From: Wolbachia endosymbiont of Cylisticus convexus
GTDB taxonomy: Bacteria; Pseudomonadota; Alphaproteobacteria; Rickettsiales; Anaplasmataceae
Direction of reading: 5' to 3'
Assembly: GCF_003344345.1 (NCBI RefSeq)
Contig: NZ_QPIP01000190.1
Location: 1-7,516 of the forward strand
DNA: 7,516 nucleotides
Positions 2-7,516 of this stretch are shown one piece after another. The translations under genes and the position numbers were made by a program. The notes below the pieces were generated by a model that was not told the DNA's origin, did no database searches, and saw only the letters and a program-made list of their open reading frames with translations. The first letter of the stretch is position 1; every line of letters starts with the position of its first letter.

Positions 2-367
2 GCTTCAAGTAAAGAAATTGCTGAGAATTATCTGCTTGAGCTGGAAGGAAAATGGGGAGAAAAGTATCCTTTAGTTATAAAATCCTGGCAGAACAATTGG
101 GAAAACTTATCCAGTTATTTTAAGTATTCTGGGCCAGTTAGGAAGCTGATTTACACCACTAATCCAATTGAGGGGTTGCATAGACAAATCAGGAAATTTA
201 CTAAAACTAAGGGTTCATTTACTAGTACAAATGCCTTGTACAAACAGGTATATTGTGCTATAAAAAAGGTAGAGCAAAAGTGGATTATGGCTCTCCCTAA
301 TTGGGCTTTAACTATGTCTCAACTTGATATTTTCTTTCCAGATAGGTTGAAAATTGAGTTGAACTAA
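2..367 (+). CDS. IS256-family (mutator-type) transposase, C-terminal part
   Basis: This gene is open from the left window edge and ends at TAA 365-367, giving 121 C-terminal residues of a protein usually near 400. It would catalyse cut-and-paste or copy-out movement of its own element through a DDE active site. The visible diagnostic block is YTTNPIEGLHRQIRKFTKTK, in which the Glu (codon 170-172) matches the third catalytic acidic residue of the family; the two catalytic Asp residues would lie upstream of the window. The closing segment (KKVEQKWIMALPNWALTMSQ then a short FPDRL tail) also matches the normal family C-terminus, so this end is not truncated. The ATG at 176 is internal and is not the real start. 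Whether the whole gene is intact cannot be judged. The frame differs from that of the interrupted sheath gene downstream. Confidence 0.92.
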   Translation, partial: ASSKEIAENYLLELEGKWGEKYPLVIKSWQNNWENLSSYFKYSGPVRKLIYTTNPIEGLHRQIRKFTKTKGSFTSTNALYKQVYCAIKKVEQKWIMALPNWALTMSQLDIFFPDRLKIELN

Positions 368-376
368 AAATGCGGC

Positions 377-382
377 TTGACA
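377..382 (+). promoter_or_regulatory. Outward-facing -35-like hexamer in the IS end
   Basis: A perfect TTGACA lies inside the right end of the insertion sequence and points out into the phage tail genes. Many insertion sequences, including IS256, are known to form hybrid promoters by supplying a -35 box next to a fortuitous -10 in the target. Here no good -10 is seen at 16-18 bases; the best candidate is TCAAAT at 402-407 (4 of 6 matches to TATAAT, 19-base spacing). It may therefore be a weak promoter or none. Confidence 0.3.
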
Positions 383-389
383 CACTTTT

Positions 390-758
390 TTGAACATTCC
401 CTCAAATGGCTACAGACTTTGGGGAAATAGAACATGTTCAAATGACTCAAAATGGGCTTTTTTATCAGTGAGAAGGACTGCAGATTTAATCAATGATAGT
501 TTACTTCGAGCTCATTTATGGGCAGTTGATCGCAATATCACTAAAACTTATATAGATGATGTGATTGAGGGGGTGAATTCTTATTTAGCCAATTTAAAAG
601 CCCAAGGAGCTATTATCAGCGGAAAATGTTATGCAACACCAGAACTCAATACACCGGCAAATATTGCAAGCGGAAAAGTGTCTTTTGATTTTGAGTTTAC
701 ACCGCCATATCCAGCTGAGCAAATAATATTCAGATCCCATCTTGTAAATATAAGTTAG
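390..758 (+). pseudogene. Phage tail sheath protein (P2 gpFI-like), 5' end removed by IS256 insertion
   Basis: These are the last ~118 codons of a contractile tail sheath protein, which surrounds the tail tube and shortens to drive the tube through the cell envelope. The remnant starts at the IS boundary with SNGYRLWGNRTC, continues through FLSVRRTADLINDSLLRAHLW and ends with a typical sheath tail (FDFEFTPPYPAEQIIFRSHLVNIS), TAG at 756-758. Full-length sheath proteins of this family are roughly 390 residues, so about two thirds is missing. The TTG at 390 sits inside the IS end and could only add four foreign residues; no ribosome binding site precedes it, so I treat this as a remnant rather than a functional gene. 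Its own frame has no stops or shifts, which suggests that the insertion is fairly recent. A 5' half may lie on the other side of the element. Confidence 0.88.
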
Positions 759-1312: not shown

Positions 1313-1567
1313 ATGCAAACTATAACACTAAACAACCCAATTACAGTTGATGGTATTTCTGTCTCAGAATTATCGATGCGTGAACCTAAAGTAAGAGATT
1401 TACTTGCTATAGAACGTATAGAAGGAGAAGCCTTGAAAGAAGTAGCTTTAATTGCTAATCTAGCATCCGTGCCAAAAGAAGCAGTTGAAGATTTATGTAT
1501 TAAAGATTATGTAGAAATACAAAAGGTGCTAAAAGATTTTTTGTCGCCGCTGGAACAGAGAACTTAA
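1313..1567 (+). CDS. Phage tail assembly chaperone gpE, zero-frame product
   Basis: This is an 84-residue protein of the P2 gpE type (tail assembly chaperone; P2 gpE is about 90 residues). Such small proteins coat the tape measure during tail assembly and are absent from the finished particle. It reads MQTITLNNPITVDGISVSEL and then a charged helical region (MREPKVRDLLAIERIEGEAL), the usual pattern for these chaperones. The start ATG 1313 follows a good site, TAGGAGA at 1301-1307. Near its 3' end it carries T TTT TTG at 1537-1543, the slippery sequence used for the -1 frameshift that makes gpE+E' in P2. Without a shift, translation ends at TAA 1565-1567. It lies between the tube and tape-measure genes, as the chaperone pair does in nearly all long-tailed phages. 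Confidence 0.9.
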   Translation: MQTITLNNPITVDGISVSELSMREPKVRDLLAIERIEGEALKEVALIANLASVPKEAVEDLCIKDYVEIQKVLKDFLSPLEQRT

Positions 1568-1692
1568 AGTATAATGTACTACTACTCAGTTCTATTTCAG
1601 GAAGTGGAATTGAGCAGATTACTAATATGGATATAAATGAATTTTTATCATGGGTAGAAATAAGTAAAGGAGTAGCAAAATGCTTTCAATAA
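1313..1692 (+). CDS. Tail assembly chaperone gpE+E', predicted -1 frameshift fusion
   Basis: This is the predicted extended chaperone, about 126 residues. The first 77 codons are those of gpE; after TTT TTG the ribosome slips back one base and continues from GTC 1543. It adds 49 residues, beginning VAAGTENLKYNVLLL and ending near FLSWVEISKGVAKCFQ, with TAA at 1690-1692. The added frame is open but has no usable start: its first ATG (1627) leaves only 21 codons, and a stop at 1501-1503 closes it upstream. The tail-end pattern (acidic residues then WVEI) resembles the short GpE/E' domain of P2-like phages. It overlaps the tape-measure start by 13 bases. By analogy with P2 gpE+E' and lambda gpGT, the extension would bind the tape measure. 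The frameshift is inferred from sequence and position and has not been demonstrated here. Confidence 0.82.
1537..1543 (+). other. Slippery heptamer T TTT TTG for programmed -1 frameshifting
   Basis: T TTT TTG fits the X XXY YYZ rule exactly, with TTT and TTG as zero-frame codons 76 and 77 of gpE. Both tRNAs can re-pair after a one-base slip. The same T6G sequence is the known site in the P2 tail operon. A short Shine-Dalgarno-like AGGTG (1524-1528) lies 8 bases upstream, reminiscent of the stimulator in dnaX. I see no convincing hairpin 5-10 bases downstream. Confidence 0.82.
1667..1672 (+). promoter_or_regulatory. Shine-Dalgarno site for the tape-measure start
   Basis: AAGGAG sits 7 bases before ATG 1680, inside the E' reading frame. 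It supports 1680 as the true start of the tape-measure protein, so the TTG at 1897 is an artefact of the frame break. Confidence 0.7.
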
Positions 1693-1946
1693 AGATCGGT
1701 GCAACGTTAGATGGCAGTTTTAATAGTGCAATGACAGGTAGTGCAGCAAAGCTTTCTAAGTTGGGTGATAGTATAAAGCAGCTTGATTCGTCAATGAAAT
1801 CTGTTTCCAAATTTAAGCAATTAAATCATGATGCCCTTGAAGCCATGAAGAATTGGAAGGAAGTGCAGAAAAAAGCAAAAGAATCAGCCGCAGCAATTGC
1901 TAAAGAAAAAAGGGAAAAAAGAGCCAAGCAAAGCACTGAGAAATGA
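1680..1946 (+). pseudogene. Tape-measure protein, N-terminal fragment before the frameshift
   Basis: These are the first part of the tail tape-measure gene: 88 codons, of which about 75-80 belong to the protein before the frame is lost. It begins MLSIKIGATLDGSFNSAMTG, the N-terminus I recognise for WO-type tape measures, and continues as a Lys/Glu-rich predicted coiled coil (KNWKEVQKKAKESAAAIAKE). After the A6 runs at 1906-1911 and 1915-1920 the frame yields RAKQSTEK and stops at TGA 1944-1946. The protein continues one frame over. Removing a single A from the second run gives a smooth junction, REKEPSKALRNEF, so one extra A is the simplest explanation. The start is fixed by a strong ribosome site. 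This is not an independent gene. Confidence 0.85.
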
Positions 1947-3945
1947 ATTCGAAAAATTGAAAGCATCGGCATCAAAGGCAAAAGAGGCTTATATCAAAAA
2001 GAGAGATGCACTACACACATTAAATGAAGAAATAAGGAAAAGTGGAAAGGATATTAAATCTTTAGTGAGGGATCAAACTAAACTTGGTTCTTCTATTGAA
2101 GTACTTAAAGGAAAATACAGTAAGTTAGGATCTGTAATACAAAAACAGCAAAATGCTTTGGCAAAAAAAGCGCATTATAGATCACAAGTAATGGAGACTA
2201 TAGGGCTAGGGCTTTCACTTGCAGCGCCAATTAAAGTTGCGATTAACTTTGAAAGTGCTATGGCTGATGTTAAGAAGGTTGTAAAGTTTCAGAATGATGA
2301 GGAAATTAATAAGTTTAGTGAGAATATAAAGAAGTTATCCCATGAAATACCACTATCAGCTACAGAATTAGCACAAATAGCTTCAAGTGGTGGACAACTT
2401 GGGATTCAAAAAGATAAGTTAATTGGATTTACAACAACAGTAGCTAAAATGGCCACAGCATTTGATATGTCTGCAGAAGAAGCAGGTGATTCTATAGCTA
2501 AGCTTGCCAATGTTTATGGAATTGAGGTAGCAGGCATGGAAAGAGTAGGTAATATTATAAATCACCTTTCAGATAATAGTGCTGCTAAAGCAAAAGATAT
2601 GGTCCAAGCACTTGCTATAGTTGGTGGTACTGCAAAACAGTTTGGTTTTGATATTAAACAGACAAGTAGTTTAGTAAATGCCTTTATTAGCCTAGGCAAA
2701 CAACCTGCAAAAGCAGCAACTGCAATAAACGCTCTACTTAGTAAACTCCAGACCGCTGAAGGACAGGGGAAAAAGTTTAAAGCAGCATTGGAAGACGTGG
2801 GAATAACTGCAGAAGAGATGACACAAAGGATTAGCAGAAATGGCCAAGACGCACTACTTTACTTTTTTGAAACTCTGGAGAAGGTAGATAAACAGGAACG
2901 TTCGCAAATCCTTCTCGATCTCCTTGGTCAAGAATATCAAGATGATATTGCATTACTAGTTGGAAGCTTAAAGAATTATAAAGATGCCATAAATAATTTA
3001 GCTGATGAGGAAGAATTTAAACAGTCCATGCAAGAAGAGTTTAACAATCGTGCAGCAACTACAGCAAATAACTTACGATTACTGAGGAATACGATAGCAG
3101 AGGTGGGAATGAATCTGGGCTCAGTAATGCTACCTCCTTTAAAGTGGATAAGTAATCTTCTAAGAGAGATAACTAATCCCATAGCTTGGTTTGCAGAAAA
3201 ATTTCCAGTTATTACTACAGGAATAATGAGCATAATTTCAGCGCTTATTATTGGTAAGATTGCAGTAGTAGGTTTTGGTTATGCATTTGCATTGGCTGGA
3301 GGTGGAATATTAACTTTTAAGGCTATTTTGCAGGGAACACTTTTGCCAGTATTAACTTCGTTATCAGCTCGAGTAATTCCAGCAGTGATCATGGGACTGA
3401 AAGCTTTAACGCTAACCAATCCTATAGGAGCTGCTATTGCTGGACTATCAGTTGGTGCAGCACTTGTAATTGCTAATTGGCAAAAGGTAAAGAACTTTTT
3501 CTCAAGTATCTGGAAATCAATTACAAAACCTATAGAAAATTGGATTGGTGTAGGAAAATTGTTTAATGATAATCCAATAAAAGCATTAGAGAAACCAGTA
3601 GAAGCAAAAATAGGCAGTACAACTAGTGAAAATAGAAGTATTTTTAGTAAAGGAAATCCTTTATTGAATAATAATGCTTTTAGTGGAATTTCGAATAATA
3701 GAACGAATATTATTGAAAGTGCTAGTGTGATTACAGAAAAAAGTTCTGTAGAAGATAATTCAGAGAAAGTTTTAAAAGACTGTGAAAAGTGTGAACAAAA
3801 AATTTTTAATCAAACTTTTACATTTAATATAAGTATAAAAGCAGAACCTAACCAAGATGTACGTAGTCTTGCTGATGCAGTAATAAAAAGAATAAGAGAA
3901 AAATCGCGTGACGTTCTGTTTGATTCAATAGAACCAATTTACTAA
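1897..3945 (+). pseudogene. Phage tail tape-measure protein, main part after the frameshift
   Basis: This holds roughly the last 675 residues of a tape-measure protein that would be about 755 long if joined to the upstream fragment. The tape measure fixes tail length and is ejected ahead of the DNA. Residues 1-95 of this part are charged coiled coil. Residues ~115-370 match the TP901-type tape-measure core (NFESAMADVKKVVKF, IPLSATELAQIASSGGQLGI, then DMSAEEAGDSIAKLANVYGI). Two hydrophobic stretches near 437-475 and 480-526 are the usual membrane-active region. A Ser/Asn-rich linker leads to a C-terminal charged segment. Apart from the frame break near 1906-1920 the gene is open to TAA 3943-3945. 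The TTG at 1897 merely opens the frame and has no proper ribosome site. The gpU start overlaps its stop by one base. Function depends on whether the shift is real or is bypassed. Confidence 0.9.
1906..1920 (+). other. Double A6 tract at the tape-measure frame break
   Basis: Two runs of six A (1906-1911 and 1915-1920) are separated by GGG. Here the tape-measure frame must move +1 (or -2) to continue. Loss of one A from either run restores it. Such tracts are mutation hot spots, sites of transcriptional slippage in AT-rich bacteria and common sequencing-error positions. The zero-frame codons (GAA AAA AGG GAA AAA AGA) do not form a canonical -1 heptamer. Confidence 0.75.
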
Positions 3946-7326: not shown

Positions 7327-7516
7327 TCAATTTTCACACTCACCTAACTCATCAACAGTTAGGCCACTTGCTCGCAAAATAACATCAGTAGAAACACCCG
7401 CCTTCACTAGATTTTTTGCAACCCTGATTTTCTCTGCTTTTTTAACTTTTTCCTTGCCACTTTTCATATCTTCAGATAGAGATTTGACTAATGCATCTAA
7501 TGATTCTTGTTCTCTG
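7327..7516 (-). CDS. Rpn-family recombination-promoting nuclease / PD-(D/E)XK transposase-like protein, C-terminal part
   Basis: The minus strand is open from the right window edge to TGA at 7329-7327, giving 62 C-terminal residues. It reads REQESLDALVKSLSEDMKSG, then a lysine-rich helix, then RVAKNLVKAGVSTDVILRAS and GLTVDELGECEN. This ending is the one I associate with Rpn / PD-(D/E)XK nuclease-family transposase relatives that are abundant in Rickettsiales. Rpn proteins are DNA endonucleases that promote RecA-independent recombination; the catalytic domain would lie N-terminal, outside the window. It converges on the phage genes, so it probably belongs to a different transcription unit and may mark the prophage border or an accessory insertion. 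Whether the whole gene is intact cannot be seen. The family call comes from memory of the C-terminal motif. Confidence 0.68.
   Translation of the reverse strand, partial: REQESLDALVKSLSEDMKSGKEKVKKAEKIRVAKNLVKAGVSTDVILRASGLTVDELGECEN

Follow-up and report, generated by a model that had tools for sequence, protein, structure and literature searches.

A probable programmed -1 frameshift site and a candidate RNA hairpin in the tail-chaperone region of Wolbachia WO phages

The window, a stretch of 7,516 nucleotides from the Wolbachia endosymbiont of Cylisticus convexus, carries the tail end of a WO phage, in which Pfam matches identified a C-terminal sheath fragment, the tube protein FII, gpE, the tape measure, gpU and gpX. 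On the plus strand the C-terminal end of a Mutator-family transposase (2-367; PF00872, E = 8.1e-16) is followed by the C-terminal fragment of the tail sheath protein FI (390-758; PF17482), the tail tube protein FII (770-1276; PF04985, E = 1.1e-59), gpE (1313-1567) and the tape-measure gene gpT (1680-3945; PF10145). From the sequence, AAGGAG at 1667-1672 is the likely Shine-Dalgarno element of the tape-measure gene, 7 nt 5' of its ATG at 1680. Further ORFs were placed by position as counterparts of gpD, an ankyrin protein, a small hypothetical protein and a patatin of related records; the candidate gpD ORF had no firm Pfam match. On the minus strand an ORF at 7327-7515 runs off the window edge.

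gpE (84 aa) lies between the tube gene and the tape-measure gene. It matched PF10109 (Phage_TAC_7, E = 6.4e-18; Pfam description 'E, or 41 or 14') above the cut-off and PHROG 166 (tail protein E, 2e-22), which agrees with a sequence-only reading of the window that had assigned gpE, a tail assembly chaperone, to a WO-type tail operon. The same reading had proposed a slippery heptamer in the right register near the 3' end of gpE, and its coordinates were correct to within a few bases: T_TTT_TTG lies at 1537-1543 on the plus strand in phase with gpE, its first T being the last base of the GAT codon in GAT TTT TTG. The gpE stop codon (1565-1567) ends 24 nt 3' of the heptamer. TTTTTTG occurs 11 times on the two strands of the window vs. 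6.8 times expected from shuffles. With window codon usage the probability of the exact heptamer given the residues D-F-L is 0.084, and an in-phase T_TTT_TTN appeared in 39% of synonymous recodings of the AT-rich gpE. Because of these figures the heptamer is weak evidence as long as a single sequence is considered.

The -1 frame, E', is open for 49 codons from 1543 to 1689 on the plus strand and is closed by TAA at 1690-1692. Its last 13 bases, stop codon included, are shared with the tape-measure gene. Thus the open frame of 49 codons and its run into the tape-measure start were both confirmed. The claim that E' has no useful start of its own also holds for the window: the first 20 codons contain no ATG, GTG or TTG, and the sole ATG is at 1627, after 28 codons. 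Only 0.7% of dinucleotide shuffles kept the frame free of stops, so that an open frame is unlikely by chance. In close relatives E' has 52 codons, a difference that is a multiple of three.

Conservation was assessed across Wolbachia phages. tblastn detected gpE in 25 of 41 Wolbachia-genus genomes; genome, phage-record and viral-contig sources together gave 76 matches, which reduced to 58 distinct E regions. The N-terminal fragments L074 and L075 were dropped, and four more N-terminal tblastn fragments were not included. The regions fall into three WO clades, which we labelled mel (37), win (15, among them the window) and ri (6). An in-phase T_TTT_TTG or T_TTT_TTT is present in all 58 distinct regions, and on these sequences we regard the WO-wide conservation as decisive against chance. 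The tally for 57 regions was 36 T_TTT_TTT and 21 T_TTT_TTG; in the remaining region the tract is eight T long. T6G is the form present in win, in ri and in the window; eight consecutive T occur in most mel regions. The expectation of T6G across WO was therefore borne out as far as an in-phase heptamer is concerned, but not in its wording, as one clade has T_TTT_TTT. The end of the gpE stop codon lies 24 nt past the heptamer in all 52 mel and win regions and 18 nt past it in the six ri regions. E' is open for at least 44 codons past the heptamer in 57 of 58 regions, the exception being L068 with a stop after 23.

Synonymous change avoids the slippery codons. In mel (34 of 37 regions, three partial copies being left out) 69 of 84 degenerate gpE columns vary synonymously, and the three slippery codons, i.e. 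GAT, GGT or GTT followed by TTT and TTT, never do. In win (15 regions) 51 of 84 gpE columns vary, and GAT or GGT, TTT and TTG again never; TTG makes up just 11% of the Leu codons in the other genes of the window, yet it is fixed in the win slippery site. In both clades the longest gpE run without synonymous change spans the slippery codons. With 18 of 81 columns varying, the ri regions are too alike for this analysis to be informative. For the E' frame dN/dS was about 0.28, and the two alternative frames gave 0.56 and 2.0, pooled over 660 pairs that are not independent and in which the constraint of a hairpin (see below) also lowers dS. This set comprised 57 of the 58 regions, one of two L066 copies being absent, and L068 was omitted because of its short E'. 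The substitution pattern indicates that E' is evolving as a protein in its own frame under protein-level selection. An alignment across WO prophages, which the sequence-only reading had suggested as a check, thus returned a conserved heptamer and E' frame with synonymous-biased change.

Changes in the length of the T tract are suggested by nine of 50 gpE protein clusters, eight in the T8 clade and one in the T6G clade. Six of these clusters read the third frame after the tract, two are in-frame E-E' fusions (P0044 and P0047), and P0014, judged by eye, looks one T short. None of the 58 distinct DNA regions has a change in tract length, the variants being known from protein clusters alone. They may be decayed copies or sequencing errors in a homopolymer, or the slip may be dispensable in some copies. 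The natural fusion P0044 was modelled with AlphaFold2 (alignment A4, 30 rows), which gave a mean pLDDT of 73.6 with blocks of 56-66 in the E' part and values near 43 at the last residues. E' is predicted to be helical, and this is all that the model tells. Foldseek with the P0044 model found no PDB entry with E below 0.001 (best 3.8). A PDB sequence search gave four matches, the best with E = 0.24, and nothing was found in NCBIfam up to E = 1.

Tail-chaperone frameshifts are well described as a kind (available parts of PMC5009743, PMC3091744 and PMC3931495), and several known systems resemble the WO locus. As the sequence-only reading had stated, E of P2 uses the same T6G site: T_TTT_TTG is in phase, and the record annotates E+E' as a -1 frameshift. 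The P2 FETUD operon shares with WO the heptamer and its register, the TCGCC that follows, the gene order tube-E-E'-T, and the overlap of E' with the start of T. On the other hand, the similarity of the E' proteins is weak; hhalign scored the WO E' profile at 96.8% with E' of nine other phages and at 17% with P2 E' alone. Lambda G/GT is alike in having a small chaperone and a longer -1 product, while its protein family and slippery sequence differ from those of WO gpE. Burkholderia phage Mica has a PF10109 chaperone with a joined product named 'tape measure chaperone frameshift product', and its E' belongs to the profile matching WO E'; it differs by an A_AAT_TTT heptamer. In ten of 13 sampled phages, P2 included, the final 75 nt contain an X_XXY_YYZ heptamer in phase, and the -1 frame runs on for 44-57 codons. 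Under this definition ZRG1, yong2 and IPK do not qualify, the gpE start of IPK being approximate. In some distant relatives the heptamer is G_GGT_TTT, G_GGT_TTC or A_AAT_TTT. A set of 35 viral-contig loci left 27 distinct ones after removal of four duplicates and of four that were not evaluable at the start coordinates used; 26 have a heptamer and a -1 frame, and L118 lacks them. Three of the 27 are already among the 58 regions, and others are also WO.

Current records reflect the frameshift in part. The suggestion that E' is likely to be missing from the records holds only partly: of eight records of Wolbachia phages, five have an annotated ORF in the E' frame (KX522565, MN180251, MK976036, MN180248 and MN180253), and it is absent from the annotation of MW788656, HQ906662 and AB161975. 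None of the eight joins it to gpE. The direct homologue is gwv_1113/gwv_1112 of WOVitA1 (KX522565.1), where both ORFs are annotated as 'tail chaperone protein' gpG/gpGT, a naming repeated in the available part of PMC10299305; WOVitA1 differs in having two separate ORFs without a joined product and in its heptamer T_TTT_TTT. The same part of PMC10299305 makes no mention of a slippery site or a hairpin for this gene pair. Searches of an open-access library turned up no account of the frameshift site or the hairpin of WO.

Taken together we conclude that 1537-1543 is very probably a programmed -1 ribosomal frameshift site of the type of P2 E/E+E' and lambda G/GT. The conclusion is based on the in-phase site, the open -1 frame, their conservation, selection on E', the gene order and the similarity to frameshift products of other phages. 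That ribosomes slip at this site in Wolbachia cells, how often they do so, and that gpE acts as a chaperone are inferences. It is highly improbable that E' is instead a separate small gene with its own or a translationally coupled start at a TTG or ATG near the gpE stop. Such starts have been annotated, from a TTG overlapping the gpE stop in KX522565.1, MK976036.1 and MN180248.1 and from an internal ATG in MN180251.1 and MN180253.1, and a start codon (ATG, GTG or TTG) is present in the first 20 E' codons of 36 of 37 mel and all six ri regions. However, in win such a codon is limited to two of 15 regions and it is lacking in the window, whereas the heptamer is universal; moreover L8, which is invariant, and R9, which is nearly so, are conserved upstream of the internal ATG. 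Transcriptional instead of ribosomal slippage on the T tract is also very unlikely as the source of the -1 product. The run of eight T in most of the mel clade and the tract-length variants would suit it, and transcriptional slippage and indels are named as possible causes of the rarity of U7 (available part of PMC4066793). Yet in win, in ri, in the window and in P2 the tract is no longer than T6G, which is short for efficient slippage by a polymerase, and the G_GGT_TTT, G_GGT_TTC and A_AAT_TTT heptamers of distant relatives fit tandem tRNA slippage, not slippage on a homopolymer.

There is likewise very little probability that E/E' of the window is a pseudogene remnant with an accidentally open frame, although the prophage around it is damaged. 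The sheath fragment sits immediately 3' of the transposase end (window 2-390), and the prophage appears to have been cut by an insertion sequence at the sheath gene. The tape-measure frame is broken near 1897-1946 in an A-rich stretch and consists of two ORFs, 1680-1946 and 1897-3945. It is uninterrupted past this point in 11 of the 15 win copies; the four broken there are L005, identical to the window, and three from one other Wolbachia genome, G012 (L023, L043 and L047), so that the stretch looks like an indel hot spot. The tape measure of L002 clears the break point, yet it ends at 257 aa. Against a remnant, both frames and the site are intact in the window and conserved in the 58 regions, and the different length of the E' end, 49 vs. 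52 codons, preserves the frame. Because sheath and tape measure are broken, E+E' may nevertheless have no work left in the window copy. A stretch of 6159 bases of the window is 100% identical to IMG/VR contig 2846025955_000020, which therefore comes from the same or a nearly identical genome. Under the IMG genome id of this twin contig there is a second, mel-type tail module (L106), in which gpE, the heptamer, E' and a strong hairpin are all intact and the tape-measure ORF ends early (396 aa).

The frameshift mechanism as such was already known; the unexpected part is a hairpin inside E'. It is located at 1582-1617 of the plus strand with the arms 1582-1597 and 1602-1617 and the loop 1598-1601; 13 pairs, 1585-1597 with 1602-1614, are continuous. 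It starts 38 nt after the heptamer (41 nt for the 13-pair core) and 14-17 nt after the gpE stop, and the interval between heptamer and hairpin is gap-free in all 52 aligned mel and win regions. Among 2277 overlapping segments scanned it was the most stable 42-nt RNA site. The hairpin topped the stability ranking in five of seven loci scanned (the window, L009, L011, L007 and L004), was second in L002, and the site ranked 189 in L008. Compared with dinucleotide shuffles the result for the window alone was mild (z -1.1 to -2.2). Consensus folding of E' gave one strong stem for mel (z -8.5), no significant result for win (z 0.03) and a weak result with a different structure for ri (z -1.6).

Base pairing was examined in an ungapped alignment (A5) of the 52 mel and win regions, 38 of them distinct, with the six ri regions left out. 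Of the cells that make up the 16 pairs (columns 46-61 with 66-81), 88.3% are paired, vs. 36-45% with the partner slid. Changes on both sides occurred at six of the 16 pairs, in 55 cells vs. 22.3 in shuffles, and 0 of 500 shuffles reached 55. Two of five covariation measures did not beat the shuffles, namely the number of double-change pairs (114/500) and further pair types (190/500), and the relatedness of the sequences inflates the remaining ones. Fitch counts were made on a tree of 49 gpE sequences without three partial mel copies and serve as a rough guide. Second codon positions of one arm face those of the other, and three of these pairs are invariant.

The coding constraint was addressed by random synonymous recoding. 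The natural sequence was more stable with p<0.05 in 23 of 26 distinct regions and with p<0.01 in 21, with a median z of -4.5; for the window p was 0.0025. When synonymous codons were shuffled column-wise among the sequences, 0 of 500 sets were as stable as the observed mean. Elsewhere in gpE and E', at 40 positions outside offsets 24-60 and with 8 to 12 sequences, the recoding test gave a mean z of -0.2 and a minimum of -1.04, while hairpin positions reached -4.6. The mean folding energy was -16.7 kcal/mol for the sense and -6.9 kcal/mol for the antisense strand. Thus, the mRNA is the likely carrier of the hairpin, as the antisense strand folds far less well. We consider the hairpin likely to be a selected RNA structure.

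The hairpin is present in two of the three WO clades, mel and win. It is weak in the L008-type subgroup (p 0.05 in the recoding test) as well as in L036 (0.13) and L047 (0.055), together nine of 52 rows. L008 has a tape-measure frame of 761 aa. No hairpin was seen at the corresponding place in the ri clade or in the majority of the distant relatives scanned. Since it is weak or absent in lineages that keep the heptamer, the hairpin is not essential to the frameshift. In ri the heptamer is directly followed by two small hairpins of another kind (L012, 5234-5275; best segment z -3.9 in the recoding test), an observation resting on six similar sequences. The WO hairpin, 38 nt past the heptamer, is a further difference from P2; for P2-like phages it has been reported that no hairpin is predicted within 60 bp downstream of the slippery site (available part of PMC3091744). 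In our scan the best E' hairpin of P2 had an offset of 50 and z -3.2 (best of 44 windows), a hint of a hairpin further downstream. In other distant phages the best hairpins were found at offset 5 in CAM-P21 (z -4.1), 26 in SNW-1 (z -3.5), 38 in Persinger (z -2.3) and 41 in Valp1 (z -1.6), z values that are flattered because each is the best of 31-44 windows. The E' frames of L046, L079, L081, L082 and L085 (P2, Valp1, SNW-1, CAM-P21 and Persinger) thus each hold a hairpin somewhere, at varied offsets. Structured E' regions may be commoner than reported.

Several identities of the hairpin were rejected or became unlikely. The region 1200-1750 contains no site resembling an intrinsic terminator, i.e. 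a G+C-rich hairpin with a T run. Rfam has no known family at 1582-1617; three sub-threshold matches occurred in the window with E up to 5. A DNA palindrome is made unlikely by the asymmetry of sense and antisense folding, and insertion of a palindromic element does not agree with the gap-free alignment of this stretch of E' in three clades. Stimulators of -1 frameshifting generally begin 5-8 nt downstream of the slippery site (available part of PMC4066793); a spacing of 38 nt, or 41 nt for the core, in the window and its relatives does not suit a classical stimulator.

How might the locus work? Most ribosomes would finish gpE (84 aa), and a minority would slip back by one base on T_TTT_TTG and produce gpE+E' of about 126 aa. 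The available part of PMC4066793 does not name U_UUU_UUG among the E. coli heptamers of highest efficiency, though U_UUU_UUU fits a listed class. In lambda G binds the tape measure and T the tail tube subunit (available part of PMC5009743); by analogy with lambda and P2, gpE would bind the tape-measure protein, while the E' tail would recruit tube subunits. The hairpin should stay folded, since its RNA is translated by slipped ribosomes alone and lies just past the terminating ones. Judged by footprint size, it starts roughly at the leading edge of a ribosome terminating on gpE. With the stem starting 38-41 nt away, it should be out of reach of a ribosome positioned on the heptamer. Ribosomes ending gpE would then leave the hairpin folded, and slipped ribosomes alone would open it. 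We tentatively favor the view that the hairpin adjusts the output of the operon, i.e. sheath, tube and gpE vs. tape measure, by protecting or segmenting the mRNA, and is not a classical stimulator. A more specific version, somewhat more doubtful, is that a lineage-specific hairpin, whose distance to the slippery site and to the gpE stop is constant, controls the ratio of gpE, gpE+E' and tape measure from beyond the usual range of stimulators, e.g. by stacking ribosomes back onto the slippery site or by separate fates of upstream and downstream mRNA.

Long-range stimulation of the -1 shift by the hairpin, either by stacking of ribosomes behind one at the gpE stop or by a tertiary contact, is unlikely. 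The distance from the heptamer is fixed without gaps, and the hairpin occupies the sole stretch read by shifted ribosomes alone; the ri clade, which lacks it, has its different hairpin right after the heptamer, and the best E' hairpins of Persinger, Valp1 and P2 lie at this distance or further on. Yet the spacing far exceeds that of known stimulators, the heptamer persists in lineages with a weak or absent hairpin, and the report on P2-like phages cited above speaks against it. Still less probable is that the hairpin lacks an RNA function and simply follows from the protein sequence of E' or from common descent. The facing second codon positions with their three invariant pairs, the close relationship of the sequences, the two covariation measures within the range of shuffles, and the weak results for window shuffles and the win consensus speak for such a by-product. 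However, both synonymous nulls were exceeded, both-side changes occurred as described, and the 40 control positions gave no like signal.

For annotation a simple rule follows: gpE and E' should be joined. The hairpin is the part worth following, as a strong, covarying RNA element placed away from ordinary translation. Wolbachia is not readily cultured outside animal cells, and the WO hairpin is testable by reporters in E. coli. As the frameshift is kept across WO, the phages of these obligate intracellular bacteria would be, now or until recently, under selection for both forms of the chaperone.
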